Assembly: GCA_013001295.1 (NCBI GenBank)
Contig: JABDMW010000024.1
Span: forward strand, 1-64,000
Direction: 5' to 3'
Length of the DNA: 64,000 nucleotides
DNA from: Hyphomonadaceae bacterium
GTDB taxonomy: Bacteria; Pseudomonadota; Alphaproteobacteria; Caulobacterales; Maricaulaceae
Shown here: positions 18,441 to 40,773 of the stretch, piece by piece
How positions within the stretch are numbered: the stretch's first letter is position 1
Layout of the letters: every line of letters starts with the position of its first letter
Position numbers and translations under genes: made by a program
The notes under the pieces: model-generated
Told to the model about the DNA's origin: nothing
The model's database searches: none
What the model saw: only the letters and a program-made list of their open reading frames with translations

Positions 18441-18465
18441 CGACCCTTAGAATTTTGGATTAAGG

Positions 18466-18492
18466 AACGGGGCCTTTACGCCCCGTTTTTTT
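18466..18492 (+). terminator. Rho-independent terminator after the TonB receptor gene
   Basis: AACGGGGC (18466-18473) pairs perfectly with GCCCCGTT (18480-18487) around CTTTAC and is followed by a 7-T run. Its end touches the stop codon of the convergent symporter gene. Confidence 0.93.
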
Positions 18493-19942
18493 ATGGTCGT
18501 TTTGAAAATACCTCATGAGCGTCCCATTTTGCTTTTTGGCCAAATAAGAACCTGTTGAGAAACAGGGAAACACAAATACTGCTGATCAGGGTCACCGCCA
18601 TCATGTGAATATAATTTCCGCCCGGGAGTGTCGGCCAGACATTCAGGAAGAACGCATACAGGGCAACGCCGAAGATCACGCCGATAATGACCGCGTTGGC
18701 ATTGACGTTTTTAAACAGCAATCCAACAATAAAAGCCGACAGGATCGGCATGGAAAGATAGCCGTAAAATTCCTGAACCTTATTGATCAGGCTTTCAGAG
18801 TTTTGGAACACCGGAAACATGATGAATGCCAGTAAGACCATGACAATAGATACCCAGAAGGATAGCCGTTTTATGTTCGGATCTTTCTTGATGTACGTCT
18901 CGTGGATATCACATACCCACAGTGCGGCGGACGCATTCAGGATCGAGTTAAATGTGGTCAGAACAGCGGCGGCGATGGCGGCTGCAAACGCACCGGACAG
19001 GAATCCGGGCAAGAGATCGCCGACAATTCGCCCATAAGCAGCATCGCCAATATCTCCATACAGCTTGTATGAAATAATGCCGGGAATGACGATTATGGGA
19101 GGCACAATCAGCAACCTGATCCCCGCCGCCGCCAAAATCCCTTTTTGCGCTTCTTTGACGCTCGGTGACGCCATGGCCCGCTGGGTAATTGTTTGGTTGG
19201 TTGACCAGTAAAACATTTGAATGAACAACATGCCGGTAAACAGTGTCGCAAAAGGAATGGGTGAGTCATAAGACCCGATCATGGAGAGGCGTTCGATTGG
19301 AATATCTGAAAAATCAAAATTGATGGCCTTCAGCGCAACCCAAACCACAAGTAGGGCGAGACAGAGTAGTAAGATCCCTGAGAACGTGTCGGACACGGCA
19401 ACGGCGCGCAAGCCGCCAAAAATGGCGTAGGCCGATCCGACAACGGCAAACGCAATAGCAATGTAGTAAATATTGACGGATTCGATACCGAACATTTGCT
19501 GCATAAACAGCGATCCGCCATACAGGATCGCTGGCAGGAATATGAAAATATTACCAGCAAGAAACAAAATCGAGATTAAAGCCCGGATATGCTTGTTGTT
19601 GTAACGACGTTCCAACAGCTCCGTCGTCGTTGTGCATTGGTATTTGTAATAAACGGGAATGAAGACGAAACACAGCATGATAAGACCAACAACCGCCGCC
19701 AATTCCCACCAGGCCAACAAGGCCATTTGATTGCCATTCATGCCGACAAGTTGATCAGTTGACAGATTGGTCAGGGTGATCGATCCGGCCACGAAATACC
19801 ATTTCAATCCGCCGCCGGCGAGGAAATATTCTTTCTCACTGTCACGTGACGTTCCGGCCCGGGCACAGACCCAAATCGTCACTGCGGCGATCAAGGCTGT
19901 AAGGCCAACAAAAACCAGTATTTGTGAGAGCTGTAAATCCAT
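18491..19942 (-). CDS. Sodium:solute symporter (SSS family), probable sugar importer
   Basis: The 483-residue protein has about thirteen hydrophobic segments and SSS landmarks: AGGGLKWYFVAGSITLTNLS near the first substrate-site helix, then STDQLVG, ATTTELLERRYN-like TTTELLERRYNNK, YAIFGGLRAVAVSD and QMFYWSTNQTITQRAMA. This is the pattern of the SGLT-like sugar branch (vSGLT, sodium/glucose-galactose transport). Placed beside GH42 and GH36 genes, it probably imports galactosides or galactose across the inner membrane. It is 23 bases downstream of the GH42 gene and likely co-transcribed with it. Confidence 0.88.
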   Translation of the reverse strand: MDLQLSQILVFVGLTALIAAVTIWVCARAGTSRDSEKEYFLAGGGLKWYFVAGSITLTNLSTDQLVGMNGNQMALLAWWELAAVVGLIMLCFVFIPVYYKYQCTTTTELLERRYNNKHIRALISILFLAGNIFIFLPAILYGGSLFMQQMFGIESVNIYYIAIAFAVVGSAYAIFGGLRAVAVSDTFSGILLLCLALLVVWVALKAINFDFSDIPIERLSMIGSYDSPIPFATLFTGMLFIQMFYWSTNQTITQRAMASPSVKEAQKGILAAAGIRLLIVPPIIVIPGIISYKLYGDIGDAAYGRIVGDLLPGFLSGAFAAAIAAAVLTTFNSILNASAALWVCDIHETYIKKDPNIKRLSFWVSIVMVLLAFIMFPVFQNSESLINKVQEFYGYLSMPILSAFIVGLLFKNVNANAVIIGVIFGVALYAFFLNVWPTLPGGNYIHMMAVTLISSICVSLFLNRFLFGQKAKWDAHEVFSKRP

Positions 19943-19965
19943 TGTAGGTCCCCTTGTGTGCGGCG

Positions 19966-21894
19966 CTATTGAAGCCGCTTGTTATTTTGATCGACGAGTA
20001 GGATATCCGTGCCGTTGATTTCGTGATCGCCTACCACAGCCCGATCGGCGGCGTAATTAACATAAAGTTGTTTATTGCCGAAGGTGCGACACCGGACCCC
20101 TGTTGGAAGGTGTTCTATGTCAACACCGGCTGTCGTCGCCATTTGTTCGAGTATTCGGATCATTGCCGTATCGTCAGGCCAACCGCAAAGATAATAAAGA
20201 TTGTCAGATTTTAGTAAGGCCGGATGCCCGTCTTCAGAGGCTTCCACGACTTCCGCATTTGTTTCAATAAATTCGCGCCAGATCCGGAATTGACCGCCTT
20301 TTTCCAAAGCAATTTCGCCGCCGGGTCTTCGGCTTTCAACAGCTGTGATTTTCACATCTAGACCATCAAGGTCAGGCGGCAGAGCAGCGGGAATTTGAAA
20401 GTCTGATGTTTTGGACCCCGACCGGGGACCGATCAGTACATGACCGCTAAAATTATCGATCGCCTGGCGCAAATTGTCAGACCACGACATAAGCCCCGGG
20501 ATAACAACCAGCTTACGGTTGCCGAAGTCGCGCATATTTGGGGGCAAGATGTCGATGGACAGACCTAATCGTCTCAACTGACGGTAAAAATCAAACACAA
20601 GACGGAAATAGTCGAAATCCTGTCCTTGCGGTTGCGTGTCCCAGGCCCAAGCCGAGGTATAATCAAATACAATTGCAACATCAGCGGCACGGGTTTCGGT
20701 TTTTCCAATGGTCGCTATTTCTTGCGCGACGCGCTTCACCTCGCCCATCACAGATGCGTCCTCACCATCCGGCCGCAACAAGCCCGCATGCATTTGTTCC
20801 TGGGCGAACGGCGCTTGACGCCACCGAAAATAACTGACGGTTTCGGCCCCGTGGGCAATCGCTTCCCATGTCCACAGCCGCGCCATGCCGGTCAGGGGGG
20901 CCGGGTTATACGGCGCCCAATTCACCGGTCCGGGCTGTTGTTCCATCACCCACCAGCGGCCTTTCCCGACGGCACGGTATAGATCATGATGAAAGGCCTG
21001 AAAGTCCGGATCGCCCTGACGCATGAATTTCGTGCGCCATTCATCGCCCAGGTCCGAACGGTCTTCCAAAAACCCCAGCGGGTAGCTATCCCAGCTGGCG
21101 ATGTCCAGATCAGAGCCGACCTCGAAATGATCAAAATCGGTAATCCGGCCCATATAATTGTGAATGAGCGGCTTGTCGGTATGGGCGCGCAGCGTTTCGC
21201 ATTGCGCGCGGTTGAATGCGACAACTTGGTCGGATGAAAAACACCTGAAATCTAAAATGTGGGCCGGGTTGGGTTCCGTGACCGTCAAGTTGGGCAGGCC
21301 GATTTCATCAAAATCACCATATTCCATTGACCAAAACACATTACCCCAGGCGGTATTGAGGGCTGCTGGCGATTTATATTTATTCATGAGCCATTTTTGA
21401 AAACTATCCCGGGCGGCAGGGCTGTAAGAAACCGTCGTATCATGGCATCCATATTCATTGTCGATCTGCCACCCCTGAATATAGGAATTACCGCCGTACC
21501 GGTGCCCGAGCGCATCGGCAATGCGGGCGCATTCACGCTTATACCCTTCATGGGAAAAACAATAGTGCCGCCGGGACCCGAAGGTGCGCGGCCGACCCTC
21601 ATGGTCATACGCCAACATGTCCGGGTGTTTCGCGACCATCCACCGCGGCGGCGTCGCGGTAGGCGTACCTAAAATTATGTCGAGGCCGGCTGACCCCAGG
21701 GTTTCGATGGCGGTATCGAGCCAGCCCCAATTAAACTCACCTTCCCTTGGTTCAATCCGGCTCCAGGCAAATTCGCCGATGCGAACCCGCTGGATCCCAG
21801 CCGCGGTCATTCTAGCAGCGTCTTGCGCCCACTCGCTTTCCGGCCAATGTTCGGGATAATAGCAAACGCCCAAGTTTGGAATTGTCGCCGACAT
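19966..21894 (-). CDS. Beta-galactosidase, GH42 family
   Basis: The 642-residue protein starts at the ATG at 21894; a TTG four codons earlier is less likely. The GH42 catalytic barrel is clear: LGVCYYPEHWPESEW at the N-terminus, acid/base Glu147 in QIDNEYG, and nucleophile Glu318 in WVMEQQPG, positions typical of GH42. A middle trimerisation domain and a C-terminal beta domain follow. No signal peptide is present, so hydrolysis of terminal beta-galactosides is cytoplasmic. The gene is upstream of the SSS symporter and divergent from GH36. Confidence 0.93.
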   Translation of the reverse strand: MSATIPNLGVCYYPEHWPESEWAQDAARMTAAGIQRVRIGEFAWSRIEPREGEFNWGWLDTAIETLGSAGLDIILGTPTATPPRWMVAKHPDMLAYDHEGRPRTFGSRRHYCFSHEGYKRECARIADALGHRYGGNSYIQGWQIDNEYGCHDTTVSYSPAARDSFQKWLMNKYKSPAALNTAWGNVFWSMEYGDFDEIGLPNLTVTEPNPAHILDFRCFSSDQVVAFNRAQCETLRAHTDKPLIHNYMGRITDFDHFEVGSDLDIASWDSYPLGFLEDRSDLGDEWRTKFMRQGDPDFQAFHHDLYRAVGKGRWWVMEQQPGPVNWAPYNPAPLTGMARLWTWEAIAHGAETVSYFRWRQAPFAQEQMHAGLLRPDGEDASVMGEVKRVAQEIATIGKTETRAADVAIVFDYTSAWAWDTQPQGQDFDYFRLVFDFYRQLRRLGLSIDILPPNMRDFGNRKLVVIPGLMSWSDNLRQAIDNFSGHVLIGPRSGSKTSDFQIPAALPPDLDGLDVKITAVESRRPGGEIALEKGGQFRIWREFIETNAEVVEASEDGHPALLKSDNLYYLCGWPDDTAMIRILEQMATTAGVDIEHLPTGVRCRTFGNKQLYVNYAADRAVVGDHEINGTDILLVDQNNKRLQ

Positions 21895-22092
21895 TATGCG
21901 ACCCAAAACACCTGGTTGTGATTGTTAGCGCGCATCCTGCGCCTAAAATCATCATTTTTCTTGCTCATATTTCCCCAACGCAACGTGATACTATTATCTT
22001 TAAAATTGATCCTGCTCTTACCGTTTTAAGTCACTAAACACCAGTCGATTATTTCGCTTTCCAAATCTCGTCATTCATCTCTATGTATATGC
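21895..22092. other. Divergent promoter region between GH42 and GH36 genes
   Basis: This 198-base AT-rich region must carry the promoters for the GH42-symporter operon and the GH36 gene. A TGTTAGCG half-site at 21923-21930 resembles half of a LacI-family operator, but the other half does not match, so no operator is called. No structured RNA or ORF was seen. Confidence 0.4.
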
Positions 22093-24315
22093 ATGGCGTC
22101 GATGATTTCAGTTTCAAAAAATAGAATATTTTCCCTGTCTAATCGGTTTTATTCCTATGTTTTCAGGGTGACACCGGAAGGCCTGTTGGAGCACATGTAT
22201 TACGGCGCCCCCTTATCTAAACCGTTGGATATACCGGTTCATCATCATCGGACGCTCCGTCACGCGGTCAGCCATTTTGAGGGACATGAGCATTTCAATC
22301 TCAACGATACGCCTCAGGAATTCCCAAGTTTTGGCACTTCGGACTACCGGTTTCCTGCCATACATGGGCGGAATTCAGACGGCAACACCGTGTTTTCACT
22401 GTTGTACAAAAAACACAAAATCACATCTTCAAAGCCGGATTTGAAAAACCTTCCCTCAGCGCGAGGCGGCGATAGCCATACTTTGATCGTAACTTTGGAA
22501 GATCCGCTCCATAAGCTGACGGTTGATCTTCACTACACCATTTATGCCGAATACGGTGTTTTGGTTCGATCGGCCAAGTTCAAAAACAAAAGCGATCAGG
22601 AAATTCAGCTTCAACACGCGTTTAGTAGCGCCTTGGATTTCCCACCGGGCGATTATGAGGTTCTGCATTTGCACGGAACCTGGTCGCGTGAGTTTAATGA
22701 GGAGCGTATCAGCGTGCCCAAGGGGCGTTTTGTTGTCGATTCCGCACGCGGCACTTCGAGCGCGGCCCACAATCCCTTTATTGCGCTTATGCAAAAAGGG
22801 ACAACCGAGGAGTTTGGCCGGGTTTACGGTACGACACTCATGTATAGTGGAAATTTCGCACTGAGTGTTGAGCGGGGAGAATTTGAAGACGTTCGCCTGC
22901 TGGCCGGGATCAATCCGTTCAACTTCCATTGGCGTCTGAAGCCTGGAAAATCATTTGAAACGCCGGAAGCCCTGCATGTGTATGCGGATCAGGGACTGCG
23001 CTCTATGAGTCATATGTGGCATGAATTTGTGCGCGATAAAATTTCGCCGCCCCAATTCCGCTATGCGCCGAGAGCCACATATCTCAACACCTGGGAAGCC
23101 GCCTATTTCGATGTCGATGGAGACAAAGTTCTCAAAATGGCTGACAAAGCCAAAGAGATCGGCGTTGATATGTTGGTGTTGGATGATGGCTGGTTTGAAG
23201 GCCGCAAAGACGATACGTCCTCGCTTGGCGACTGGGTCGCCGATCAGCAACGCTTCCCTTCCGGCATTCCAGCCTTGGCCAAAAAGGTAAAAGCCAAAGG
23301 CTTGAAGTTCGGCATTTGGTTTGAACCGGAAATGGTCAACCCAAAGAGCGCATTGTTTGAAAAACACCCGGACTGGGTTTTGCATGTACCAGGCCGGACA
23401 TCGTCATTGGGGCGCAATCAACTGACACTCGATCTGTCGCGTGACGAGGTCACCGATTATTTGTTTGATCAAATTGATGCGTTTTTGTCCTGTGGGGATG
23501 TGGATTATGTCAAATGGGATATGAACCGCAATATGACCGAAGTTGGTTCTGCAGGTCTCGCAAAAAACCGGCAACGGGAAGTATCCCATAGATATATGTT
23601 GGGGCTTTATAAATTGCTCGGCAAACTGACGAAGAAATACCCGGATATCATTTTTGAAAATTGCGCCAGCGGCGGTAACCGGTTTGATCTGGGTATGCTC
23701 AGTTTCATGCCGCAAGGCTGGATCAGTGATATGTGTGATCCGGTCGGGCGACTAGGGATTATCAACGGAGCGTCCTATCTTTATCCGCTGGATACGATGG
23801 CCGCTTATATCGGTCCGTCACCAAACCATCAAAATGGTCGCGTCTCATCGATCCAAACCCGGTTTATGGCCGGGGTGTTCTGCGCCGCGCGCGGCGTATC
23901 CTTAAACGAAGAAACCATCGATGCACACAAAGACGAACTGAAACACCTTATGGCCCTCGCGAAAAAGACCAGTGCCGACATGGTCGGTGGGCGGTTCGAC
24001 CGATTGATCAACAATGGCAATGCGGTCTGTTGGCAATATACTAGCCGTGATGAAAGCACGGTCTATCTCGCATATTTTCATATTCTTGCAGCGCCCAATC
24101 TTCCCTTCAGGCGGGCCCATTTGACGGGCTTGGACTCAAAAGCTGTTTACGAGTTGGAAGAAGACGGCTCGCGCTTCCAAGGCGACGCCTTAATGCACAG
24201 CGGTATGCCCATGCCCTATGTGGCGACGGGGCAAGTGAAAGATGATATGCGCTATATGGAGAAGGGCGACTTCTCTTCATATCTGTTTGTTTTTCGAAAA
24301 GAAGACAAAAAATGA
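22093..24315 (+). CDS. Alpha-galactosidase, GH36 family
   Basis: The 740-residue protein is a GH36 enzyme. It has the N-terminal beta-supersandwich, then the catalytic barrel starting at about residue 330 (TWEAAYFDVDGDKVLKMADK, LDDGWFEGR). Nucleophile Asp476 lies in DYVKWDMNRN and the acid/base Asp546 in GWISDMCDP, and the CASGGNRFDLGM block lies between them. These are the positions usual for bacterial GH36 alpha-galactosidases. There is no signal peptide, so it would remove alpha-1,6-galactose from raffinose-type sugars, melibiose or galactomannan fragments inside the cell. It ends 22 bases from the convergent inositol-cluster gene. Confidence 0.93.
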   Translation: MASMISVSKNRIFSLSNRFYSYVFRVTPEGLLEHMYYGAPLSKPLDIPVHHHRTLRHAVSHFEGHEHFNLNDTPQEFPSFGTSDYRFPAIHGRNSDGNTVFSLLYKKHKITSSKPDLKNLPSARGGDSHTLIVTLEDPLHKLTVDLHYTIYAEYGVLVRSAKFKNKSDQEIQLQHAFSSALDFPPGDYEVLHLHGTWSREFNEERISVPKGRFVVDSARGTSSAAHNPFIALMQKGTTEEFGRVYGTTLMYSGNFALSVERGEFEDVRLLAGINPFNFHWRLKPGKSFETPEALHVYADQGLRSMSHMWHEFVRDKISPPQFRYAPRATYLNTWEAAYFDVDGDKVLKMADKAKEIGVDMLVLDDGWFEGRKDDTSSLGDWVADQQRFPSGIPALAKKVKAKGLKFGIWFEPEMVNPKSALFEKHPDWVLHVPGRTSSLGRNQLTLDLSRDEVTDYLFDQIDAFLSCGDVDYVKWDMNRNMTEVGSAGLAKNRQREVSHRYMLGLYKLLGKLTKKYPDIIFENCASGGNRFDLGMLSFMPQGWISDMCDPVGRLGIINGASYLYPLDTMAAYIGPSPNHQNGRVSSIQTRFMAGVFCAARGVSLNEETIDAHKDELKHLMALAKKTSADMVGGRFDRLINNGNAVCWQYTSRDESTVYLAYFHILAAPNLPFRRAHLTGLDSKAVYELEEDGSRFQGDALMHSGMPMPYVATGQVKDDMRYMEKGDFSSYLFVFRKEDKK

Positions 24316-24337: not shown

Positions 24338-25933
24338 TTAGCTGATTTCGGGATCGCCGAGGTCGAGCAAAGCGGCCGGTTGATAGTCCCGACCCAAGAC
24401 GTCGTTTTGTAAAAGGTCGCGGCTTTCCAGGTACGGGATCAGCCGGTCAAGATGATCGGTTTGAATGAACAAGGCGCCGGCTCTAATGCTGTCTTCAAAT
24501 CCGCGTTCGTTATCAGAGAACCCCATAACATTGCAAAACAGATGAAAATCCGAAGATTTAATGGCGCGGGCGGCCTTAAAGCTAAAGGACAAGCGCCGCA
24601 ATCCCATGATCTCGAGTGAATGTTCTCGGGCCAGCCATCGGGTGCGGCGCACGCTGATATAATGGGGACGCAGTGCGTATTGCGGCGACAGGGATTTCAA
24701 AATGCCGAAATGATGGCGTCGGGCAAATATGGTCACCAGATGTCCGGATGAAAATCCTTCTTCTTCGAGCAGGTTCGACAGGATTTCCGCTGAGTTGCGC
24801 GGACCGCCCTTAAAATCGATATCAACCACATACCGGCCTTTTACGTTACGCAAGGCTTCGCGCAAGGTCGGTACCGGCTCGCCAGCAAATTCCGAGCCTT
24901 TCCACGATCCGGCATCGAGCTTTTTGACCTGTTCGAGGGTCATTTTCTTGATACGGCCAAAACCATTGGTGGTGCGGTTGACTGTGGCATCATGCATCAG
25001 CACGAAGTGACCATCCTTGGTGCAACGGACATCAAACTCAATCGCCCGTGCCCCGAGAGCAAAGGCGGCTTCATGGGCCGCCAACGTGTTTTCCGGCGCA
25101 AACTTTTTTGAGCCCCGGTGTCCAACGGCGACGATCTTGTGCCCGTGGCCATTCATACCGTTCACTTTAGTTTTTCTGCTAGAGTCCGTATCTTGTCGAC
25201 TGCGCATCCATTTGTGGGCAATTTTATGCATTTGAGGGCTGTCGACATCGATCCAGCGGGAATTGCCAATATCGATGGTGTGCGCTTGCCCGGCATTTGA
25301 GAGAATTTTCATGCCGCCGGATATGCTGCAATCGCCCGTGTCTTCAACGCTTTTTTCAATTGCGGCAAACAGGTTGGGGTTGGCGCGAAAAATGCCGCAA
25401 TCAAAGGCATTATATTTTTTAACCTCTTTGCCGATTTTCTCGATCTTGCCGTCTTGTCCGGCGACAACCCGGGTTACGTCTTTGATGTCCACATCGGGGT
25501 TCTTAAGACGTTTGTCGACACCCAGGCCAACCGTGCCAGGTGCTAAATCCGCTGACATCAGGGCTTCATATATTTGCGGCTCTACTACATGATCGCACAT
25601 GGATAGGAAGAAGTTCGATTTGAGATAGGGCTTAGCGGCCAAGACTGACAGGCCATTGGCTTTCTCATATTCTGGGTTCTCGACAATAGTGATTTTCCAG
25701 CGGTATTTCTTACGCAGGGATTGCAGGAAATTTTTCAATATTCCGGCTTTATATCCAGTGACGATTACAAAGTTCGTGACACCTGCATCCGACGCCGACC
25801 GCATGGCATGCTCGATCAAAGGGCGCCCACACAGATTGACCAGAGGCTTTAAATCGCCAAAGCCTTTTAAGCGCGTGCCTTTGCCTGCGGCAACGATCAA
25901 ACAATCCGTAATTTGGGCTCTAGCTTGCAGCAC
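24338..25933 (-). CDS. CTP:inositol-1-phosphate cytidylyltransferase fused to glycerophosphodiester phosphodiesterase
   Basis: The 531-residue product is a two-domain fusion. Residues about 8-245 are a sugar nucleotidyltransferase with LIVAAGKGTRL and KPLVNLCGRPLIEH. They carry the hallmarks of the IPCT half of archaeal IPCT/DIPPS enzymes: EKANGLSVLAAK, FLSMCDHVVEP, IEKIGKEVKKYNAFDCGIF and RWIDVDS. Residues about 268-520 are a glycerophosphodiester phosphodiesterase with all catalytic elements: His272-Arg in VGHRG, PENTLAAHEAA, AIEFDVR, and LMHDATVNRTTNGFGRI. The GTG start at 25933 has a strong GGGAGG six bases upstream and overlaps the MMPL gene by 14 bases. With inositol synthase and a CDP-alcohol transferase nearby, it would make CDP-inositol and perhaps recycle inositol phosphate from glycerophosphoinositol. 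Confidence 0.85.
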   Translation of the reverse strand: MLQARAQITDCLIVAAGKGTRLKGFGDLKPLVNLCGRPLIEHAMRSASDAGVTNFVIVTGYKAGILKNFLQSLRKKYRWKITIVENPEYEKANGLSVLAAKPYLKSNFFLSMCDHVVEPQIYEALMSADLAPGTVGLGVDKRLKNPDVDIKDVTRVVAGQDGKIEKIGKEVKKYNAFDCGIFRANPNLFAAIEKSVEDTGDCSISGGMKILSNAGQAHTIDIGNSRWIDVDSPQMHKIAHKWMRSRQDTDSSRKTKVNGMNGHGHKIVAVGHRGSKKFAPENTLAAHEAAFALGARAIEFDVRCTKDGHFVLMHDATVNRTTNGFGRIKKMTLEQVKKLDAGSWKGSEFAGEPVPTLREALRNVKGRYVVDIDFKGGPRNSAEILSNLLEEEGFSSGHLVTIFARRHHFGILKSLSPQYALRPHYISVRRTRWLAREHSLEIMGLRRLSFSFKAARAIKSSDFHLFCNVMGFSDNERGFEDSIRAGALFIQTDHLDRLIPYLESRDLLQNDVLGRDYQPAALLDLGDPEIS

Positions 25934-28373
25934 GAAGAGCCTCCCTTTTATCTGCCTGCTCGCGATATATCTGCATCAGCACAGGAAGCAAGACCCAAGT
26001 CATAATCAAACAGCAAATAAATCCGATAATGGCCAACAAGCCCATGGACCGGAGACCGCCCATCGACGCCGTCACCATGCCGCCGAACCCGATCAAGGTC
26101 GTGATTGTTGTGAGAACGGCGGCACGCCCGGTCGTGTTCATGATTTTAGCGATATCGGCGTCTTTGCCCTCATGTTGGAACCTGTGGAAAATATGAATGG
26201 CGTTATCAACGGCAATCCCGATCAGGGAGGGCAAGATCACCATATTCATAATCGAGAGCGTAGGCCCAAATGCACCCATAATGCCTATGGTAAGAAGAAC
26301 GCCGAGCAGGGGCGGGATCAAAACGACCAATGTACCTCGCCAGGTGCGGATGAAATAAAACACCAACAGTGCTGTTGTGAGGGTCACAAGCGCGATGGCT
26401 TTGACGGCATCGCTCTTCATCAGGGCGATCATTTCCACAAAAATAAAGCTCTCCGATGCGCTGTAATATTGCTTGCCATTGACGATAAACCCGGCCGCAT
26501 CGTCATAGAATTGCTTGGCGAGCACACTGTCGTCCGTGGTCACCGAATTATAGATATACATCAGATAACCGGGCTCGCTATCTGTGCCGAGATAGGTCCG
26601 CCGCAAGGCATCGGGAAGATCAAGAATATTGAGATCTTCAATAGTGAGATAACGTTGGGTAGCTCTGTATTTCGTCGGATCAAAGCTTTGCAAAGCTTCC
26701 GCCCGCGCGCCCAAACGGGCAATAACCTCAAGACGTTTCACCTGGGCGGCCTGATCGGGGACGAAATCCAACAGGCTGCCAATTTTTTTGATGGTTGGCG
26801 TTTCGGTGTCTTCTTTGATCAAGCCTTTAAAATACTTGTCGATAGCCACAACTTCTTCCTGGGTTTTGACCACGACGATGGCGCGGTCATGTCCGTCCGA
26901 GAACACTTTATTGACCGCTTCTGTCGCGATGGTCAGATCGGCCGGGCGCTGGGCCTCCAGGTTTTTGATATTGCGCTCAAATTGGATTTGCGGGGCAAAA
27001 ATAGTGATGAAGATCAGCACCAATACAGTCGCGCGGGTAATAAATTTCGTATGCGTAAGTGGGTTCAGGTTATCGTTAGCGCCCATGCGTACCCAAAATG
27101 CTTTGGGAATTTTGCGCGCATTCCAGCCCAACCTCTCCATGACGACAAGCAGGGAGGGAAAAATCGTGTACATAGAGAGAAAGGTGAAGGCGATCCCCAT
27201 GCCGGCGATCGCTCCAAATTCCGTAAAGGCCCGAAACTCGGTCAGCATGAGCGAGAAGAAGGCGCAACCCGTTGTCAACGCGGCGATTAAGGACGCTGCT
27301 CCGGTGCTCTGCATGACGATTGTTAAAGCTTCTAGCGTCTTTTTACCGCCGCGCCGTTCTTCGCGAAAACGGCTGAAGTTGTGAATACCGAAATCAATAC
27401 CAAGCCCGAACAGGATCAATGTCAGAAACACGGTGATCAGGTTTAGACCGCCCACAGTCACCGCGGTCATACCGAGCGTCCAGACAATGCCAATCGCCAA
27501 AGGGATGAAAATCGCAGGAATGGCGGCGAAGCTGCGATAAGAGAAAATAATCAGAATGGCGATGAGTGAAATCGACCACATCAGCCCGGTTTTTAAATCA
27601 TTCATAATGGCGTCAAATTGGGCGACCTTATTGGCAATACGTCCTGCGACACCAGCCGTCAGTCCGTCGCCAAATTGCGAGGGGTCGATCTTGGCGATCG
27701 CGGCTTTCGAGGCTTCGACCATATTTTTGGCGTCGGTAAGCGATTCAAGACCGGGTTTGGGCCAGACGACCAGCACCATAATTTTTTCGTCGTCGGAAAC
27801 AAATTTGCGGACCGTTTGTGGGGTGGAGGATACCTGTCCTTGGATGTCATCAATACGGGATTGGTCAAGTTCGGTATTGGAATTGCCGACGAGATTTTCA
27901 CCACGTAGTGTAAATGTGACTTCCGCGCCCATGATTTCTGAAAGTTGTTTAGCGACAATAGTTGGGTAGGCTTCGTTTATATCCGCTTCGAGAGATTGGA
28001 GTTCATTCAGACTTAATAGCAAGAGTTTGTGTTGCTCGAGAACTTCCACATCTTCATAATATTGGCTGGATTGCACCCAGTCTTCTTTGTCAATTTCCGC
28101 CTGGACCTGAGCGATGAATGCGGCCGAGGTTTCCGGGTTGTCCGATTCGGCAACAATTTGAATGGAGGCGAAACTTCCGGTTTTCTTCAACGCATTGTTC
28201 AGCGTTTTTACGCTTTCTGCGCCTTGGGGCATTAGACCTTCCAGCCGGGTTGAAACGCTGATGTTCATTGTCGATTTGACGGCGAAATAAGTGACGATTA
28301 CGCCCAGGATCAGAATGGCGACCGCATAACGATACACAATCCTGGCCCAAAATGCAGCAAAACGGGAAATCAT
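25920..28373 (-). CDS. MMPL/RND-family transporter
   Basis: The 817-residue protein is a two-fold repeated membrane protein: a single N-terminal helix, a large periplasmic loop (about 35-250), a five-helix bundle with FLTLILFGLGIDFGIHNFSR and an RGGKKTLEA segment, a second loop, and a second bundle with LPSLIGIAVDNAIHIFHRF. The GIDFGIH and AVDNAIH stretches correspond to the proton-relay helices of MMPL proteins. Family members export lipids (MmpL3, HpnN). Its stop overlaps the cytidylyltransferase gene and its start overlaps the flippase gene, so a role in moving the lipid product of this locus is inferred. Confidence 0.88.
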   Translation of the reverse strand: MISRFAAFWARIVYRYAVAILILGVIVTYFAVKSTMNISVSTRLEGLMPQGAESVKTLNNALKKTGSFASIQIVAESDNPETSAAFIAQVQAEIDKEDWVQSSQYYEDVEVLEQHKLLLLSLNELQSLEADINEAYPTIVAKQLSEIMGAEVTFTLRGENLVGNSNTELDQSRIDDIQGQVSSTPQTVRKFVSDDEKIMVLVVWPKPGLESLTDAKNMVEASKAAIAKIDPSQFGDGLTAGVAGRIANKVAQFDAIMNDLKTGLMWSISLIAILIIFSYRSFAAIPAIFIPLAIGIVWTLGMTAVTVGGLNLITVFLTLILFGLGIDFGIHNFSRFREERRGGKKTLEALTIVMQSTGAASLIAALTTGCAFFSLMLTEFRAFTEFGAIAGMGIAFTFLSMYTIFPSLLVVMERLGWNARKIPKAFWVRMGANDNLNPLTHTKFITRATVLVLIFITIFAPQIQFERNIKNLEAQRPADLTIATEAVNKVFSDGHDRAIVVVKTQEEVVAIDKYFKGLIKEDTETPTIKKIGSLLDFVPDQAAQVKRLEVIARLGARAEALQSFDPTKYRATQRYLTIEDLNILDLPDALRRTYLGTDSEPGYLMYIYNSVTTDDSVLAKQFYDDAAGFIVNGKQYYSASESFIFVEMIALMKSDAVKAIALVTLTTALLVFYFIRTWRGTLVVLIPPLLGVLLTIGIMGAFGPTLSIMNMVILPSLIGIAVDNAIHIFHRFQHEGKDADIAKIMNTTGRAAVLTTITTLIGFGGMVTASMGGLRSMGLLAIIGFICCLIMTWVLLPVLMQIYREQADKREALRAAS

Positions 28374-29896
28374 GACTCAATCTTTACCGGGACGCGAGAT
28401 GTTCGCCTGCTTCTGCCCTGGCCCAATACACGGAATAAAATTTTATCAGATTTCGTCAGGGCGAAGACTTTGATCATCAATGCAAAAACGGTCAAATTAA
28501 CCACCACACCTGCTATAATTAACCAGCCTTGTTCAGGCGAAACAAAGTGTCGAATAGCCAATAGGCTGGCCAACATCAAGAGGGCGAAAACAGTGGGTAA
28601 AATATAACTCATATTGATCACATTGATCTTGAGATGTTTTGACAGACTCCAAAGACGCCCGAGATTGAGAAAACATACCGCAATCAAGAAACCAACGGCC
28701 GCGCCCTCGACGCCGTAAAGATAAGAGAGCAGGGCGATCAGGGCGATCTCGATGATCAGAGTAAATACCAAAAGAGTTGGCGGGATTTTCGGTTTTGCAA
28801 ACACCAAAGGCGTTTCGGTTGAAATGAAGGTACCATCAATGACTTCGGCGACGAGAATAATGGTCAGGACCAATCCACCTGTTATAAACGCTGCATTGAA
28901 CAAGCCCAGCAGATAGTCACCAAAGACGACCATCGGGACCGCGATCACGAGTTGAATAATGAAAATCCATCGGCAAATGCCAATCATATTAGCCCGTATG
29001 CGCTTTGCATTTAATTGATTATGAAGGCGCGCAATCACCGGCGATAACATAGGCTCAAACAGGCCCGCCAACCTTTGCTGGATCGTCACCAACTGCTGTA
29101 CCATGAAGTATAAGCCTGTTGCAGTGGGTCCGACGAAGATGCTGAGCACAATCAGATCAATACGGCGTAGCGCCATTATGCCCATGTCGGTAATCCCGAC
29201 CGGAACTGATTGTCTAACGATTTTGGGAATGTCTGAAAAATTTGCGCGGGCCGCTGCAAGGGTTTTTGCAGGGTAGGTTGAAAGCAGCCCGTAAGCAGCG
29301 ACCAGGGCCGCGACAAATAATGAGCCGGCATAGGCCAGAACGAGGCCGGTTTCCTTCATACCTAGACCCAGGAACAGCAGCGCCAATAGAAACAATCCCC
29401 AGGACTCGGCGATACTGCGCGACCAGACGTCCCATTTGACGATGCGCTTGTATTTAATCGCGGTCAGGCAGACATCGATAAATATACTGGCCGGCATGGC
29501 AAAAAATAACAATGCCCATATGGCTGGTTGCCCGGGCAAAACCAAAGGCCAGACAAAAAGAAGCAGTGTTGATATGGCAAACCCGGCGCCCAGCGCGATG
29601 ATAAAAGCTTCTTTAATCCGTGGGGCCGGCTCTAATCCGGCTTCGTGCCGCTCGCTCAACATATCGAGCAGGCTTCGCTTTAAGCCCATGACGCCAATGG
29701 CCGCGGTAATTTCCGTAATGGCTGCGACCAACCCCAGAATACCGAGGGCTTTAGGACCAAATGACTGTGCTGCGACCACCATAAAAGCAACACGCGCAGC
29801 CAATCGCCCGCCAAAGCCGAAGAGTGAGGCCGCAGCTCCCCTTACAACGTCACGATAGTCAGCAATCCCGCTCACGGCTTGACCATGATTTGGCAT
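28370..29896 (-). CDS. Wzx/MATE-like polysaccharide flippase
   Basis: The 508-residue integral membrane protein has about 12-14 hydrophobic segments and starts with an amphipathic VVRGAAASLFGFGGRLAARV stretch typical of Wzx/MurJ-like (MVF superfamily) flippases; later blocks PVGITDMGIMALRRIDLIVL and QRLAGLFEPMLSPVIARLHN fit the polysaccharide-biosynthesis C-terminal family. Such proteins turn over lipid-linked molecules. The stop overlaps the ATG of the MMPL transporter by four bases, so flippase, exporter and cytidylyltransferase form one operon. The substrate is not identified. Confidence 0.85.
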   Translation of the reverse strand: MPNHGQAVSGIADYRDVVRGAAASLFGFGGRLAARVAFMVVAAQSFGPKALGILGLVAAITEITAAIGVMGLKRSLLDMLSERHEAGLEPAPRIKEAFIIALGAGFAISTLLLFVWPLVLPGQPAIWALLFFAMPASIFIDVCLTAIKYKRIVKWDVWSRSIAESWGLFLLALLFLGLGMKETGLVLAYAGSLFVAALVAAYGLLSTYPAKTLAAARANFSDIPKIVRQSVPVGITDMGIMALRRIDLIVLSIFVGPTATGLYFMVQQLVTIQQRLAGLFEPMLSPVIARLHNQLNAKRIRANMIGICRWIFIIQLVIAVPMVVFGDYLLGLFNAAFITGGLVLTIILVAEVIDGTFISTETPLVFAKPKIPPTLLVFTLIIEIALIALLSYLYGVEGAAVGFLIAVCFLNLGRLWSLSKHLKINVINMSYILPTVFALLMLASLLAIRHFVSPEQGWLIIAGVVVNLTVFALMIKVFALTKSDKILFRVLGQGRSRRTSRVPVKIES

Positions 29897-30073: not shown

Positions 30074-31174
30074 ATGAAATTTGACATCCTGATTGGATCG
30101 GACAATTTTTGGAATGCGTTGGAAGCGGATATATTGTCCGCTCAAAACCGTGTTCATATCCAGGCGATGACGTTTGAAGGCGACAGCGTTGGTTTGAAGG
30201 CATTTGAAGCCATGAAGCAGTCAAATGCCGCCGATAAACACCTTTGTGTCGATCATTTCTCAAATCTCGTGATCAGTGATGATTTTATCTATGGCCGCCG
30301 CCGTTTGCGCGATGCGGAATTTCGTCAAGAAGTCCGCGCTACAAGGGAAATGTTCCGCTCCGCACCATCTGAAAACATCCAATTGGCCTTTACTAACCCA
30401 ATGGGATTTTTGTTCTCCAAATATCCGCACCGCAATCATAAAAAGCTGATGCTGATCGATGATCATATTGCTTATGTCGGTGGGATAAATTTCAGCGAAC
30501 ATAATTTCGAATGGCACGATATTATGCTGCGGATTGAAAACCCCGATATGGCAGAATTGCTTGGCGAAGATTATCAGCATACGGTCAATGGTCGAAACCA
30601 GTCTCTGCGCACGCAAGTGGGTGACGCGGATGTGTTTATTCTCGATGGTCGTCGCAGTTGGGGGCTGTATGAGGATCTATTTGATGTCCTGAAATCAGCC
30701 AAACATTCAATTAAAGTGATCTCGCCCTATATCACATGGCCGTTTCTGGATGTTATTGGCGAAAAGGCCAAGCAAGGTGTGGATGTTCAGATCATCTCGC
30801 CTGAATCAAACAATAAATCACTGTTGAAATATTATTTGCAGCACCAGCAGCAAAAATACCCATTCTCGATTTTCATGTATGAAAAGAAAATGTCACATCT
30901 TAAAGCGATCCTGATCGATGACGAGATCCTGGTGATGGGCTCGACCAATTTCGATTTTGCCAGCTATTGTCTGGAACAGGAGTTTTGCTTTGTTTTACGC
31001 AACCCTGATCTGATTGAGCAGTTCAAGGAAAAAGTCGTTGATGATGCTATGGCCCATTCGCGTGCTCATTTGCCCGAAACCACAAACTGGAAACACAACG
31101 CTGCAGGCGCGGTGATCAGTATCGCGATCTCTGGATGTAAGGGGCTTTCAAAGATAATTTATCGCGGCAGGTGA
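30074..31174 (+). CDS. Phospholipase D-like domain protein (two HKD motifs)
   Basis: The 366-residue protein carries two intact HKD motifs: His122-Lys124-Asp129 in HKKLMLID with a following GGINF, and His275-Lys277-Asp282 in HLKAILID with GSTNFD. It resembles the catalytic part of cardiolipin synthases but lacks their N-terminal transmembrane helices and has no signal peptide. Possible reactions are phosphatidyl transfer or hydrolysis of phospholipid head groups. It is transcribed away from the flippase operon (177-base divergent gap), which suggests it belongs to the same lipid locus. A nuclease role cannot be excluded. Confidence 0.85.
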   Translation: MKFDILIGSDNFWNALEADILSAQNRVHIQAMTFEGDSVGLKAFEAMKQSNAADKHLCVDHFSNLVISDDFIYGRRRLRDAEFRQEVRATREMFRSAPSENIQLAFTNPMGFLFSKYPHRNHKKLMLIDDHIAYVGGINFSEHNFEWHDIMLRIENPDMAELLGEDYQHTVNGRNQSLRTQVGDADVFILDGRRSWGLYEDLFDVLKSAKHSIKVISPYITWPFLDVIGEKAKQGVDVQIISPESNNKSLLKYYLQHQQQKYPFSIFMYEKKMSHLKAILIDDEILVMGSTNFDFASYCLEQEFCFVLRNPDLIEQFKEKVVDDAMAHSRAHLPETTNWKHNAAGAVISIAISGCKGLSKIIYRGR

Positions 31175-31214: not shown

Positions 31215-31670
31215 CTACAATGTTTTTGCAGCGTCCATTATGGCTTTGCGAATACGCACATAGGTCGCGCAACGACAGATATTGCCGTCCATCGCACTGT
31301 CAATGTCTTCATCTGACGGTGATGCATTTGTCTCCAGCAAATTGATAGCACTCATGATTTGTCCAGCTTGGCAATACCCGCATTGCGGCACCGCTAACTC
31401 TTCCCATGCGGCACGTATTGCCGAGGCGACTTTTCCATTGGCAGATTCTATGGTCGTGACTTCGCTGCCTTCGACATCTTCATGAGGGGTAATGCATGAT
31501 CGAATTGGCGCCCCGTCAACGTGAACCGTACACGCGCCGCATTGGGCGACACCGCAGCCAAATTTTGCGCCTGTCAAACCGAGATGGTCGCGTAAAACCC
31601 AGAGCAGGGGGGTGCCTTCTGCGGCTGTGACAGTTTCTTTCTTACCATTGATTTTGAGTGTGATCGCCAT
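31215..31670 (-). CDS. iorA: 2Fe-2S subunit of Ior-type molybdenum oxidoreductase
   Basis: The 151-residue protein is the small electron-transfer subunit of the isoquinoline 1-oxidoreductase type. It carries a plant-type ferredoxin cluster motif ([15 protein letters not shown] with a later SC) and a second cluster motif ([10 protein letters not shown] and NICRCATY). Length and layout are standard. It is three bases downstream of the large subunit gene and is co-transcribed with it. A FAD-binding subunit is absent, as expected for the Ior type, which passes electrons to a cytochrome or other acceptor. Confidence 0.92.
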
Positions 31671-31673
31671 GGC

Positions 31674-34178: not shown

Positions 34179-35078
34179 TTAGTTCCCCGACGGGCTAGCC
34201 GCAATCGTGGCTTCCACCTTGCGCTCATAAATGATCAGTCCAATCAATACGATGTTGAGCAGCACAATTTCATAGACGAAATACATGGCCGGCAGGCCGA
34301 GACCTGCGAAGATGGCAATGGCGATGGTGCGGTTATTGGCGTTTAAGAGCGCCCAGGCCCGCACTATGCCGGATGTTTTATTGATTAGGGTCTGCACATC
34401 GCCAAAACTGGCATTGTCATCGCGCATTTGTTTGAGCTTGGCATCCAGAGGCGAGGCCCCACCCGATACAAGGCGTTGCGCGGCGTCATATATGCCTGCC
34501 AGCGTCGATTTCTTGCCATCAACGGATAATAACTTATCTGTGACGTCACTGCGCTCAATGCCACGTGTGCGACGTTGGTATTTCTGGCGCCGTTCTTCAT
34601 ATCCGGCTGCTTGCACGGCGTGGCTAGCGCCAGCTGCCAAGGCCAAGAGCCAGACCATGGGAGAGCTGCCGGTTTTGAGGAGATAGAGCACGAAAGCGAT
34701 ATAAACGGCGCCAAACACCAGATGATCACAGATCCCGTCTATGATCCGACCAAAAGCACTGCTGGTCCCCGTGGCACGGGCGACACGGCCATCAGCCCCA
34801 TCAAACACATGCCAAGCAAGCATGGATAGAAACCCGGCGAGAACGAAGCCGAGCGCAGGCTGTTGATAATAGAAATAGGCCGCCAGCCATCCTGCGCCAA
34901 GTCCAATGAATGAAATGATATTCGCGCTTACGCTCATTTTAATCGCGATTTTGGCAATCACCGCCGAAATCGGGTGCACAACATATTGATTGGAGAGTTC
35001 TTCAATAGAATTCGGACGCCCATACTCAGCCTGTTTCTTTTGAGGTTGAACCTCTGGCTGAGCTTGAGCGTCCGGCAT
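34179..35078 (-). CDS. CDP-alcohol phosphatidyltransferase family protein
   Basis: The 299-residue integral membrane protein has the complete CDP-alcohol phosphotransferase signature: Asp93, Asp96-Gly, Ala100-Arg101, Gly110, Asp114 and Asp118 in a run from WHVFDGADGRVAR to GRIIDGICD. The preceding MSVSANIISFIGLGAGWLAA helix resembles the DIPPS part of IPCT/DIPPS enzymes. With the cytidylyltransferase fusion, it would transfer phosphoinositol from CDP-inositol to a lipid alcohol or to a second inositol phosphate. About six membrane segments follow. It is 43 bases downstream of the inositol-phosphate synthase gene. Confidence 0.85.
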   Translation of the reverse strand: MPDAQAQPEVQPQKKQAEYGRPNSIEELSNQYVVHPISAVIAKIAIKMSVSANIISFIGLGAGWLAAYFYYQQPALGFVLAGFLSMLAWHVFDGADGRVARATGTSSAFGRIIDGICDHLVFGAVYIAFVLYLLKTGSSPMVWLLALAAGASHAVQAAGYEERRQKYQRRTRGIERSDVTDKLLSVDGKKSTLAGIYDAAQRLVSGGASPLDAKLKQMRDDNASFGDVQTLINKTSGIVRAWALLNANNRTIAIAIFAGLGLPAMYFVYEIVLLNIVLIGLIIYERKVEATIAASPSGN

Positions 35079-35121: not shown

Positions 35122-36264
35122 CTAGCTGCCAGTTACTTGCTTGAGGACTTCCACAGATTCACCGGCAATGAAGGACTCGGTGAGTTGGTGGGCAACCTCA
35201 TCTGTGTATTGCACCGGTGGATGCTTACAGAAGAAAGATGATGGTGCGGCGATGGCACCGGAGACGCCGCGGTCCATGGCAACTTTTGCGCACCGCAGCA
35301 TATCGATGGCCACACCAGCGGAGTTCGGGCTGTCTTCGACAGACAGGCGAAGTTCAAGATTCATCGGCACGTCGCCAAACAAGCGACCTTCCATGCGAAT
35401 AAAGCAGATTTTGTTATCGTTTTGCCATGGCACATAATCGGACGGGCCGACATGAATGTTTTCGTCTTCAATACGCTCCGCTGCTACTGACTGCACGGCT
35501 TCAGTCTTGCTTTCTTTCTTTGATTCCAATCGAAGCTGGTTTTTCATATTCAGAAAGTCGGTATTACCGCCTGTATTGAGCTGATATGTGCGATCAACCG
35601 GTACACCGCGTTTGTGGAATAGATCGGTGAGGACGCGGTGAACGATGGTTGCGCCCATTTGGGCTTTAATATCGTCGCCAATGATCGGCAGGCCTGCATC
35701 TTCAAAACGCTTCGCCCAAGCCGGCGTCGACGCGATAAAGACCGGAATATTGTTGACGAAAGCACATCCGGCTTCGATCGCACATTCGGCGTAGAACTCG
35801 GTTGCTTCCTGGCTGCCGACGGGCAGGTAATTGGTCAAAACGTCAACTTTGGCGTCTTTCAAAGCCTTGACGACTTCCGCTTTCGTGGGTTCACGGGTGA
35901 AAAGTGGAATGAAACGCCGGTCATCTGAATACGATGCCATATGGTCGGAATATCCGTCCATAATGCAACCCATCTGGACTTTTACGCCTGTTTTAGGCAC
36001 GTCCGGACAGAAAACCTCGGTACAATTTGGTTTCTCGAAAATGGCTTCTGCAACGTCTTTACCGACTTTGCGCTGGTCAATATCAAATGCGGCAACGATT
36101 TTGACGTCGCGGCTATGATAACCCGCCAGTGTTGAGTGCATAAGACCGGCAGATTCGGTCTCGTTTTTATTGCCATAGTAAGTCAGTCCCTGAACAAGCG
36201 AACTTGCACAATTTCCCACGCCCACAATAGCAACATTGATTTGTTTTTTGTCCTGATTTGTCAT
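35122..36264 (-). CDS. ino1: Inositol-3-phosphate synthase
   Basis: The 380-residue enzyme makes myo-inositol 3-phosphate from glucose 6-phosphate using NAD. It is of the shorter prokaryotic type: N-terminal NAD-binding motif VAIVGVGNCASSLVQGL, DVLTNYLPVGSQ, the NTGGNTDFLNM signature, and a C-terminal VAIDMLRCAKVAMDRG. I chose the ATG at 36264, preceded by GAGGG five bases away, over a start nine codons upstream. MIPS of this type is rare in Proteobacteria and in this window is next to the CDP-alcohol transferase, so the product probably feeds an inositol-containing lipid or solute. Confidence 0.93.
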   Translation of the reverse strand: MTNQDKKQINVAIVGVGNCASSLVQGLTYYGNKNETESAGLMHSTLAGYHSRDVKIVAAFDIDQRKVGKDVAEAIFEKPNCTEVFCPDVPKTGVKVQMGCIMDGYSDHMASYSDDRRFIPLFTREPTKAEVVKALKDAKVDVLTNYLPVGSQEATEFYAECAIEAGCAFVNNIPVFIASTPAWAKRFEDAGLPIIGDDIKAQMGATIVHRVLTDLFHKRGVPVDRTYQLNTGGNTDFLNMKNQLRLESKKESKTEAVQSVAAERIEDENIHVGPSDYVPWQNDNKICFIRMEGRLFGDVPMNLELRLSVEDSPNSAGVAIDMLRCAKVAMDRGVSGAIAAPSSFFCKHPPVQYTDEVAHQLTESFIAGESVEVLKQVTGS

Positions 36265-36330
36265 ATTTCCCTCAGCTTTTGCCGGTGCCAATTCTTAGGT
36301 TTTTATATGGCCCGAACGTCGATGCTGTCC

Positions 36331-36437: not shown

Positions 36438-37337
36438 TTAATCTTGATTGCCGCTGATGACATCCTTGGTTCTGCGGAGTTTAATTTCCATGTCGACGCC
36501 CTCTGCCGGAACTGCGAAAGTAGCTTCCTCAAATTTCGGTGATTTCGTTGTAAATTTCGGGTTATTTGACATGCCAAATCGTTCTTTTGGCAGGCCTAAG
36601 AAGTTTTTGTCAAAGAAAGCATTGCTGTTCTTGTCGTGATAGATGGCCACGGAGTAATTTCCCGGCTCCGGAACGGGCATGCAGAAAAAGGTTTCGTCTT
36701 CGACAGCTGTCGCACGAACGCGTAAGACGACTTTTTCCCAGTCCAGAAAGTTTTCTTTCACGTCGTCGTGCAGATCAGCGACGATGATGCCTTTTGAGTT
36801 CTTGACATTCGAAACTTTGATGCGAAGTGACGGATTGCCGTCTTCGCAACTGGTTGGGTCCTTCATGATGGGAGCACCGACAATGACGTCGATAAATTGT
36901 TTGCGGATTCCATTGGGCCAATTGGGCGCGCTGTTGAGCGCTGCATTTGACGGTAAATTCGGGTTTACCTCGCCAATGGCTTCGGTTTTAGCATCGTTTG
37001 TTGATGGTATCACCGTGAGATCATTCGTGCTTAAATTGACCTGCTGCTCGGTTTGAACCGGATCAGTTTTTGGTTGCGCGGGGGCTGGCGTTTCCACAAC
37101 AGGCGGAGTTCCGCCATAAACACGTGGCTTAAACTTGTCTTCGACAACCGGCTGCGTTTCATTTGGAGTCTGTGCCTGGGCCGCAGTTTGTTGCGCCGAT
37201 GCGCTCACAGGAATCGAGTTTTGCGCGGAGGCCGTTGCGGCAATGGCCATTAAGGAAACAGTGTTGACCGCCACCAAAAGGTTTCGGGTCAATCGTCTCG
37301 CTGGCGCTATATTTGTGTCACGTGTTGAGTGTGTCAT
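36438..37337 (-). CDS. DUF2141 secreted protein with Pro/Gln-rich linker
   Basis: The 299-residue protein has a signal sequence near residues 18-39 (RNLLVAVNTVSLMAIAATAS followed by AQ), a low-complexity linker rich in Gln, Ala, Pro and Thr to about residue 135, and a C-terminal DUF2141 domain (about 165-290). That domain has the characteristic GNYSVAIYHDKNSNAFFDKN and GLPKERFGMSNNP. DUF2141 proteins are exported beta proteins of unknown function, often found in sphingomonads and caulobacters. Its linker could span the periplasm or attach to the cell wall. A terminator separates it from ino1. Confidence 0.85.
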   Translation of the reverse strand: MTHSTRDTNIAPARRLTRNLLVAVNTVSLMAIAATASAQNSIPVSASAQQTAAQAQTPNETQPVVEDKFKPRVYGGTPPVVETPAPAQPKTDPVQTEQQVNLSTNDLTVIPSTNDAKTEAIGEVNPNLPSNAALNSAPNWPNGIRKQFIDVIVGAPIMKDPTSCEDGNPSLRIKVSNVKNSKGIIVADLHDDVKENFLDWEKVVLRVRATAVEDETFFCMPVPEPGNYSVAIYHDKNSNAFFDKNFLGLPKERFGMSNNPKFTTKSPKFEEATFAVPAEGVDMEIKLRRTKDVISGNQD

Positions 37338-39471: not shown

Positions 39472-40773
39472 GTGCGTATCGTAAACTGGAGCGATTGTGA
39501 CAAGGGGGAACGTGCCAATGTATTGGCGCGGCCAGAGATCCTATCCGATGCCAAAATCCTGAGAAATGTCGATAATATACTTGGAATGGTTCGAGATAGC
39601 GGAGACGCGGCTCTACTCGATCTTACGCTTAAATTTGACGGCATCGTCCTGTCTTCGCTCCGTGTACCTATTAGCGAGAGCGAAGCGGCGTGGAGTGGTT
39701 TGGATTTGCTTGACCAACAGGCGATGCAGACAGCAAAAACCAACATAGAAGCCTTTCATCTCCCGCAGAAACCAAAGCCTCTCAATGTTGAAACTATGCC
39801 TGGGGTTGTGTGTCGGCGCGAACCGCGCGCCCTGGATAGTGCAGGGCTCTATGTTCCTGCAGGGACGGCGCCATTGGTTTCTACATTGATGATGCTGGCT
39901 ATTCCGGCAAAATTGGCCGGTGTGCCCCGTTGTGTTGTAACAACCCCGCCAGGGAAAGACGGGAAAATCGATAAACATGTTTTGGCGGCGGCCCATCTTT
40001 GTGGCGTCGACGAGGTCTATTGTGTTGGCGGTGCTCAAGCGATCGCCGCATTGGCCTTTGGTACGGAGAGTATTGCGAAAGTGGCCAAAATATTTGGCCC
40101 GGGTAATGCGTATGTGTCAACCGCGAAAGCCCGGGTCGCGCAAATGGCCGGAGGCCCTGCCATTGATCTCCCGGCTGGCCCATCCGAAGCCATGGTTCTG
40201 GCCGATGATCAGGCGGATCCGGTATTCGTGGCATCTGATCTTCTGAGCCAAGCCGAACATGATACGATGGCACAAGTTGTCTGCGTGTGTCGGTCGCAAA
40301 AATTCGCGCAGTGCCTGACGGATGAAATCAACAACCAGTTGACCGATCTTCCCCGGCGAAATATTGCAGAGGCGTCATTGGAAAATGGACGGATTATCGT
40401 CGTCAATGATCGAAATACGATGATTGAAATTGCCAATACCTACGCCGCAGAACACTTGATTGTACAAATTGATAAACCCGAAAGCGCTGTGCCGCACATT
40501 CAGAATGCTGGATCTGTTTTCCTGGGTCCGTGGACACCTGAGTCCGTCGGTGATTACGCCAGCGGTACCAATCATACATTACCGACGAATGGCGCAGCGC
40601 GCGCTTACTCCGGTGTGGTGCTTGAAAGCTTCATCAAATATATCAGTGTCCAGCAATTAAGCCGGGCCGGATTAGAAGCTTTGGGCCCCAGCGTAGAACG
40701 CCTTGCGAATATGGAAGGGCTAGAAGCCCACCGTCGGGCCGTCTCACTACGACTGGAAAGGGGAGAGCAATAA
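39472..40773 (+). CDS. hisD: Histidinol dehydrogenase
   Basis: The 433-residue protein oxidises histidinol to histidine in two NAD-dependent steps. It shows the family motifs: VPAGTAPLVSTLMMLAIPAK, the long VYCVGGAQAIAALAFGTESI, the metal/NAD site GPGNAYVSTAKA, IDLPAGPSEAMVLAD and QAEHDTMAQ. The GTG start at 39472 follows the hisG stop by two bases, and an ORF extension upstream would overlap hisG and is rejected. The stop shares a base with the hisC-hisB ATG (TAATG). Confidence 0.95.
   Translation: MRIVNWSDCDKGERANVLARPEILSDAKILRNVDNILGMVRDSGDAALLDLTLKFDGIVLSSLRVPISESEAAWSGLDLLDQQAMQTAKTNIEAFHLPQKPKPLNVETMPGVVCRREPRALDSAGLYVPAGTAPLVSTLMMLAIPAKLAGVPRCVVTTPPGKDGKIDKHVLAAAHLCGVDEVYCVGGAQAIAALAFGTESIAKVAKIFGPGNAYVSTAKARVAQMAGGPAIDLPAGPSEAMVLADDQADPVFVASDLLSQAEHDTMAQVVCVCRSQKFAQCLTDEINNQLTDLPRRNIAEASLENGRIIVVNDRNTMIEIANTYAAEHLIVQIDKPESAVPHIQNAGSVFLGPWTPESVGDYASGTNHTLPTNGAARAYSGVVLESFIKYISVQQLSRAGLEALGPSVERLANMEGLEAHRRAVSLRLERGEQ

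Follow-up and report, generated by a model that had tools for sequence, protein, structure and literature searches.

A cytidylyltransferase-glycerophosphodiesterase fusion in a predicted inositol-lipid cluster of marine Alphaproteobacteria

A single gene in the 64,000-nucleotide stretch of DNA analysed here (the window) encodes a protein that unites an inositol-1-phosphate cytidylyltransferase (IPCT) half with a glycerophosphodiesterase (GDPD) half. The enzymes and the pathway are of known kinds; the combination of IPCT and GDPD domains appears to be new. The reading that we favor, with some reservation, is that the gene belongs to a cluster for the de novo synthesis of an inositol phospholipid, and that its GDPD half serves a general lipid turnover linked to an MMPL-family transporter and was fused to the IPCT through adjacency. 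The locus points to a predicted, complete make-and-export inositol-lipid cluster in marine Alphaproteobacteria and ties a subfamily of GDPDs to MMPL lipid transporters. PMC9246714 describes inositol lipids as relatively uncommon among bacteria.

The fusion is genuine and conserved within one genus

The fusion gene (24338..25933, minus strand; 531 amino acids) forms one open reading frame, which extends from a GTG start at position 25933 to a stop ending at position 24338 and has no internal stops. The assignment of the GTG as start is supported by a Shine-Dalgarno-like site (GGGAGG; 25940..25945, minus strand) six bases 5′ of it. Unbroken fusions are present in 5 of the 137 genomes of the family, namely in that of the window and in G002, G005, G007, and G012, all from a single genus, of which 14 genomes were searched. 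The homologs in the other four genomes are 63-72% identical to the window protein and contain no stop. Public contigs with the fusion are JAJRSJ010000023.1, NVVO01000002.1 (Robiginitomaculum sp. NORP61), and JAJRSG010000092.1.

The join of the two halves is real. A sequencing error can be dismissed because four further genomes of the genus have the same unbroken fusion, and the chance that two genes were merged by an artefact of assembly or sequencing is negligible. Although the related sequences are assemblies in many contigs, several of them titled as MAGs, the identical join recurs in divergent, stop-free homologs; the artefact reading was rejected on account of the one unbroken frame common to five genomes. 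A preliminary description had already proposed a single fused protein and had named a stop near residue 250 as the sign of an error; no such stop exists in any of the five genomes, and the fused protein is borne out. The junction, which had been placed at residues 240-268, is indeed a linker, but its range is corrected to about residues 241-264 (25142..25213, minus strand), which are poorly conserved and have a low pLDDT at residues 250-264.

Strong purifying selection acts on both halves and exempts the linker. Between G002 and G007, dN/dS is 0.07 for the IPCT half, 0.64 for the linker (19 aligned codons), and 0.033 for the GDPD half; therefore, both halves are maintained, with the linker free to vary. 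These figures rest on one pair because most pairs showed synonymous saturation; G002-G007 alone combined a dS of about 1 or below with finite values in each of the three segments.

Both halves are probably catalytic

The IPCT half (residues 8-240; 25214..25912, minus strand) contains a GKGTR motif (residues 17-21), K29, D114, and D229/D231, and is recognized by Pfam as NTP_transf_3 (residues 11-128). In the PDB, it is closest to 2xme, 4mnd, and 4jd0, the three IPCTs with solved structures (E-values 1e-19 to 1e-20); the next-best family follows at 2.6e-9. A Foldseek search with the full-length AlphaFold model also ranked 4jd0, 4mnd, and 2xme first. The mean pLDDT of that model is 70.2, with low confidence in the GDPD half, which was modelled separately; the relative placement of the domains in the full-length model was left unused. 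R21, K29, and D114 are invariant in the six aligned rows and align with residues of the IPCT of T. maritima (R16, K26, and D112) that are named as critical in PMC12275187. The top-scoring model for the N-terminal half is that of the bifunctional IPCT/DIPP synthase, whose cut-off of 580 bits is not attained by the match (119.7 bits). Together, the nearest solved structures, the active-site residues, and the linkage to myo-inositol-phosphate synthase (MIPS; see below) support its prediction as an inositol-1-phosphate cytidylyltransferase.

The GDPD half (residues 265-520; 24374..25141, minus strand) matches the Pfam family GDPD (PF03009) at residues 272-375 with 111.6 bits (gathering cut-off, 23.6), and the match spans just positions 1-107 of the 244 positions of the profile. 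The best PDB match is 2pz0 (E-value 4.2e-32), and the separate model of this half is a complete alpha/beta barrel (mean pLDDT 69.8; TM-score by target 0.75 with 2pz0). H272 and H314, which we take to be the catalytic histidine pair, are retained, as are E299 and D301, two of the three carboxylates that presumably serve as metal ligands. The third is Asp373 (Glu in 2pz0), an Asp common to all eight GDPD rows; the half also carries K375. The exchange at this ligand and the limited Pfam coverage could be taken to mean that the half is catalytically dead, or that it serves the MMPL transporter or the membrane in a scaffolding or regulatory capacity. Such a role is very improbable, however, given that both catalytic histidines and the first two carboxylates are retained, that the predicted barrel is complete, and that dN/dS is 0.033. 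The degenerate-half reading was rejected on the basis of dN/dS and motifs.

The assignment of both halves agrees with that of the preliminary description, and the catalytic motifs that it reported are present. Also its expectation of a bifunctional protein is supported as probable.

The fusion gene lies in a putative inositol-lipid cluster

Directly upstream of the fusion gene is the gene of an MMPL-family (HpnN/BstA-like) transporter (25920..28373, minus strand), whose last 14 bases are also the first 14 of the fusion gene. The start of the MMPL gene in turn has a 4-base overlap with the gene of a flippase-like membrane protein (28370..29896, minus strand), which has a weak match to WZX_like, below the cut-off. 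Further upstream are a CDP-alcohol phosphatidyltransferase (34179..35078, minus strand; Pfam, 47.1 bits), MIPS (35122..36291, minus strand; a family match), and a DUF2141 protein (36438..37337, minus strand) that most relatives likewise have in the cluster. The preliminary description had overlooked these surroundings. MIPS, MMPL, and the CDP-alcohol transferase pass the Pfam cut-offs; these three and the flippase all score below the NCBIfam equivalog cut-offs. With 271.4 bits against the model of the HpnN hopanoid transporter (cut-off, 751.85), the MMPL protein is HpnN-like only. The motif of the CDP-alcohol transferases as defined in PMC9246714 (DX2DGX2AR...GX3DX3D) is intact in the window, where the sequence reads DGADGRVAR...GRIIDGICD.

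The order DUF2141-MIPS-transferase-flippase-MMPL-IPCT(-GDPD) is contiguous in four relatives (L001, L002, L003, and L102); in L005 and L101, the same order starts at MIPS, and in L004, the contig end truncates it at the transferase. In the window, xanthine-dehydrogenase-like Fe-S and molybdopterin subunits (31215-34019, minus strand) and a PLD-like gene (30074-31174, plus strand) split the flippase from the transferase; the two are contiguous in the relatives. The cluster is adjoined by genes for galactoside use (15954-24315), comprising an SSF symporter, a GH42 beta-galactosidase, a GH36 alpha-galactosidase, and a TonB receptor. The window also contains an apparent HisC-HisB fusion (40773-42413, plus strand), a frame of 546 amino acids with an aminotransferase class I/II domain (residues 42-346) and an imidazoleglycerol-phosphate dehydratase domain (residues 387-528), which adjoins HisG and HisD.

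The gene content suggests the following pathway. MIPS enzymes form inositol phosphate from glucose 6-phosphate, and the homolog in the cluster would make L-myo-inositol 1-phosphate de novo. The IPCT half would then use CTP to convert L-myo-inositol 1-phosphate to CDP-inositol, from which the CDP-alcohol transferase would transfer the phosphoinositol moiety to a lipid glycerol acceptor. With the help of the flippase-like protein and the MMPL transporter, the resulting inositol lipid may be moved to the other side of the inner membrane or released from it.

The product of the cluster might also be a soluble di-inositol or glycero-inositol phosphate, with the GDPD half degrading that phosphodiester. 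This is suggested by the best-scoring model of the N-terminal half, the bifunctional IPCT/DIPP synthase, and by homologs that are IPCT-CDP-alcohol transferase fusions of the same kind. Nevertheless, we regard it as unlikely, because flippase-like and lipid-type MMPL genes are conserved in the cluster, and because solutes of the di-inositol phosphate type are known from hyperthermophiles.

The two halves occur separately in related genomes

Either half was found in 19 genomes of the family: fused in 5, as IPCT alone in 7 (all from the genus g7), and as GDPD alone in 7 (G010, G021, G031, G082, G085, G087, and G089). MIPS is present in all 12 genomes with an IPCT, whereas it is absent from the 7 genomes with only the GDPD (all 19 were checked); the G007 gene reads as two pieces, on a contig that contains undetermined bases, and G153 has a partial match. 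Among 61 relatives, MIPS is present in six, which are exactly those with an IPCT half at least 58% identical. Because MIPS accompanies the IPCT in all 12 genomes, inositol probably comes from de novo synthesis, and its predicted use is a CDP-inositol lipid route fed by the IPCT half.

Both halves usually have MMPL in their vicinity. The IPCT lies directly behind MMPL in all seven IPCT-only genomes. The GDPD directly adjoins MMPL in G085, G087, G089, and with one of its copies in G082; in G010 and G021, a single gene of the cluster separates it from MMPL. No MMPL was found in the 17.9-kb contig of G031, nor within the 12 kb of the second GDPD copy of G082, which is accompanied by DUF2141 and glycosyltransferases. 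Because the GDPD accompanies MMPL also in inositol-free genomes, it likely acts on lipids handled by MMPL. The GDPD half would then be a phosphodiesterase of glycerophosphodiesters or lysophospholipids that functions in the turnover of MMPL-linked lipids and is not specific for inositol.

In three clusters, those of G010 and G021 and one of G082, two glycosyltransferases are located near the GDPD. Those of G021 score 261 and 153 bits against GlcN_PG_synth, below the cut-off of 480, and those in the G010 and G082 clusters are homologous to the G021 pair. Clusters that combine a GDPD with a pair of GT4 glycosyltransferases, GpgS-like in L039, occur at L038:2982-7359, L039:2989-10763, and L095:4983-9166, in part with an additional Pfam-less membrane protein, MMPL, and DUF2141; possibly, they represent glycosyl-phosphatidylglycerol loci.

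The separate occurrence of the halves also bears on a single route of salvage and synthesis, which the preliminary description had proposed. In such a route, the GDPD half would cut glycerophosphoinositol or lyso-phosphatidylinositol at the inositol-phosphate side and pass inositol 1-phosphate to the IPCT half. Both halves are conserved and apparently catalytic in five genomes, and cleavage on the inositol side of a headgroup built from L-myo-inositol 1-phosphate would return the right isomer. The proposal is nonetheless unsupported, because MIPS already supplies the substrate de novo, IPCT and MIPS occur together whether or not the IPCT is fused, seven genomes have the inositol cluster without this GDPD, and the seven GDPD-only genomes lack both IPCT and MIPS. 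Moreover, free inositol is no substrate of IPCTs. The canonical GDPDs yield glycerol 3-phosphate and the free alcohol (PMC4926365). We consider such coupling improbable, and a dedicated enzyme of glycerophosphoinositol salvage is possible but not favored. A low probability also applies to a recycling of headgroups in which the GDPD releases inositol 1-phosphate from a deacylated or lyso inositol lipid and the IPCT on the same chain re-activates it, closing a bacterial phosphatidylinositol cycle beside the exporting MMPL. If the halves were shown to cooperate, the protein would represent an enzyme that recycles phosphoinositides within one polypeptide chain.

Origin of the fusion

Because the halves also occur apart in relatives, a merger of neighboring genes is likelier than a recycling machine. 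A position of the IPCT gene between those of MMPL and the GDPD, once acquired, could have led to its fusion with the latter. It would co-locate two activities of one lipid locus, and channelling between them would not be required. The halves have remained together in each of the five genomes, at identities as low as 63%, a persistence for which a functional coupling would likewise account.

The GDPD of G010 opens with about 30 residues that resemble the start of an IPCT and then continues straight into the GDPD. In the GDPD tree, it is placed among the GDPDs of the fusions, in a seven-row set (98/97) that includes the unfused copy of G082; an inner five-row set (85/88) does not resolve. The simplest reading suggests a fusion followed by the loss of the IPCT in G010, and a chimeric contig is a possible alternative.

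IPCT homologs in wider samples

Homologs of the N-terminal half were also identified in samples of the class (385 genomes) and the phylum (398 genomes) at an E-value of at most 1e-25, with the best few candidates per genome scored. In the class sample, 10 of the 11 other homologs have MIPS and/or a CDP-alcohol transferase as a neighbor or fusion partner (flank of about 1.5 kb); the flank in L079 contains neither. In the phylum sample, 13 of 15 adjoin MIPS; L104 has MMPL and a flippase instead, and the flank in L111 contains none of the queried genes. In view of these contexts, inositol is the most probable substrate of the IPCT and de novo synthesis its most probable source.

A GDPD match was absent from the flanks (about 1.5 kb) of all 11 class and 15 phylum loci; rarer or more distant fusions may have escaped because the scans sampled genomes and scored the best few candidates of each. 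A literature search recognized no paper on an IPCT-GDPD fusion, which does not prove its absence. Other fusions are present: homologs in L081, L082, L084, L085, L105, and L117 are fused to a CDP-alcohol transferase, and MIPS-IPCT fusions of about 625-700 amino acids, which unite two consecutive steps of the pathway, occur in other Alphaproteobacteria (L077:1489-3366, L083:334-2229, and L088:1477-3573). The long CDP-alcohol transferases encoded at L078, L080, L083, and L088 gave no Pfam match to a HAD domain.

Comparison with known systems

The closest counterpart of the fusion is the bifunctional IPCT/DIPP synthase (Archaeoglobus, 4mnd; NF041135), which likewise has two domains, an N-terminal IPCT, and a CDP-inositol chemistry. 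However, its second domain is a CDP-alcohol transferase. The fusion has a GDPD at that place, and the transferase of the cluster is encoded by a separate gene.

A CDP-inositol route to inositol phospholipids was reportedly described by Jorge in 2015. As in the window, the genes for MIPS, the nucleotidyltransferase, and the CDP-alcohol transferase of this phospholipid route are clustered; the window differs in its additional flippase-like, MMPL, and DUF2141 genes and in the fusion of a GDPD to the IPCT. For Bacteroidetes (B. vulgatus and relatives), a CDP-inositol route to phosphatidylinositol via an NTP transferase and a CDP-alcohol transferase has been proposed in PMC9246714, which does not confirm it by enzymology; the proposal is repeated in a review (PMC10191378). 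The alternative cluster that PMC9246714 describes for B. vulgatus has a HAD hydrolase, unlike that of the window.

CpgD of Caulobacter, a CTP:phosphoglycerate cytidylyltransferase (PMC12275187), likewise comes from the Alphaproteobacteria, is IPCT-like, and serves a lipid headgroup. By its published description, it acts on phosphoglycerate for a sphingolipid, whereas the linkage to MIPS points to inositol in the present case. The GpgS/GlcN-PG operon of Pseudomonas, with an enzyme that makes GlcNAc-phosphatidylglycerol (PMC12713373), shares GpgS-like glycosyltransferases with some of the GDPD-only clusters, but the matches here are below the cut-off, and the abstract of that paper mentions neither GDPD nor MMPL.

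The GDPD half shares its fold, the histidine pair, and the Glu/Asp metal ligands with the group of cytosolic GDPDs and lysophospholipases D represented by 2pz0, 8ghh, and 7ym0. It differs from them in the Asp at the position of the third metal ligand, in its fusion to a cytidylyltransferase, and in its linkage to MMPL.
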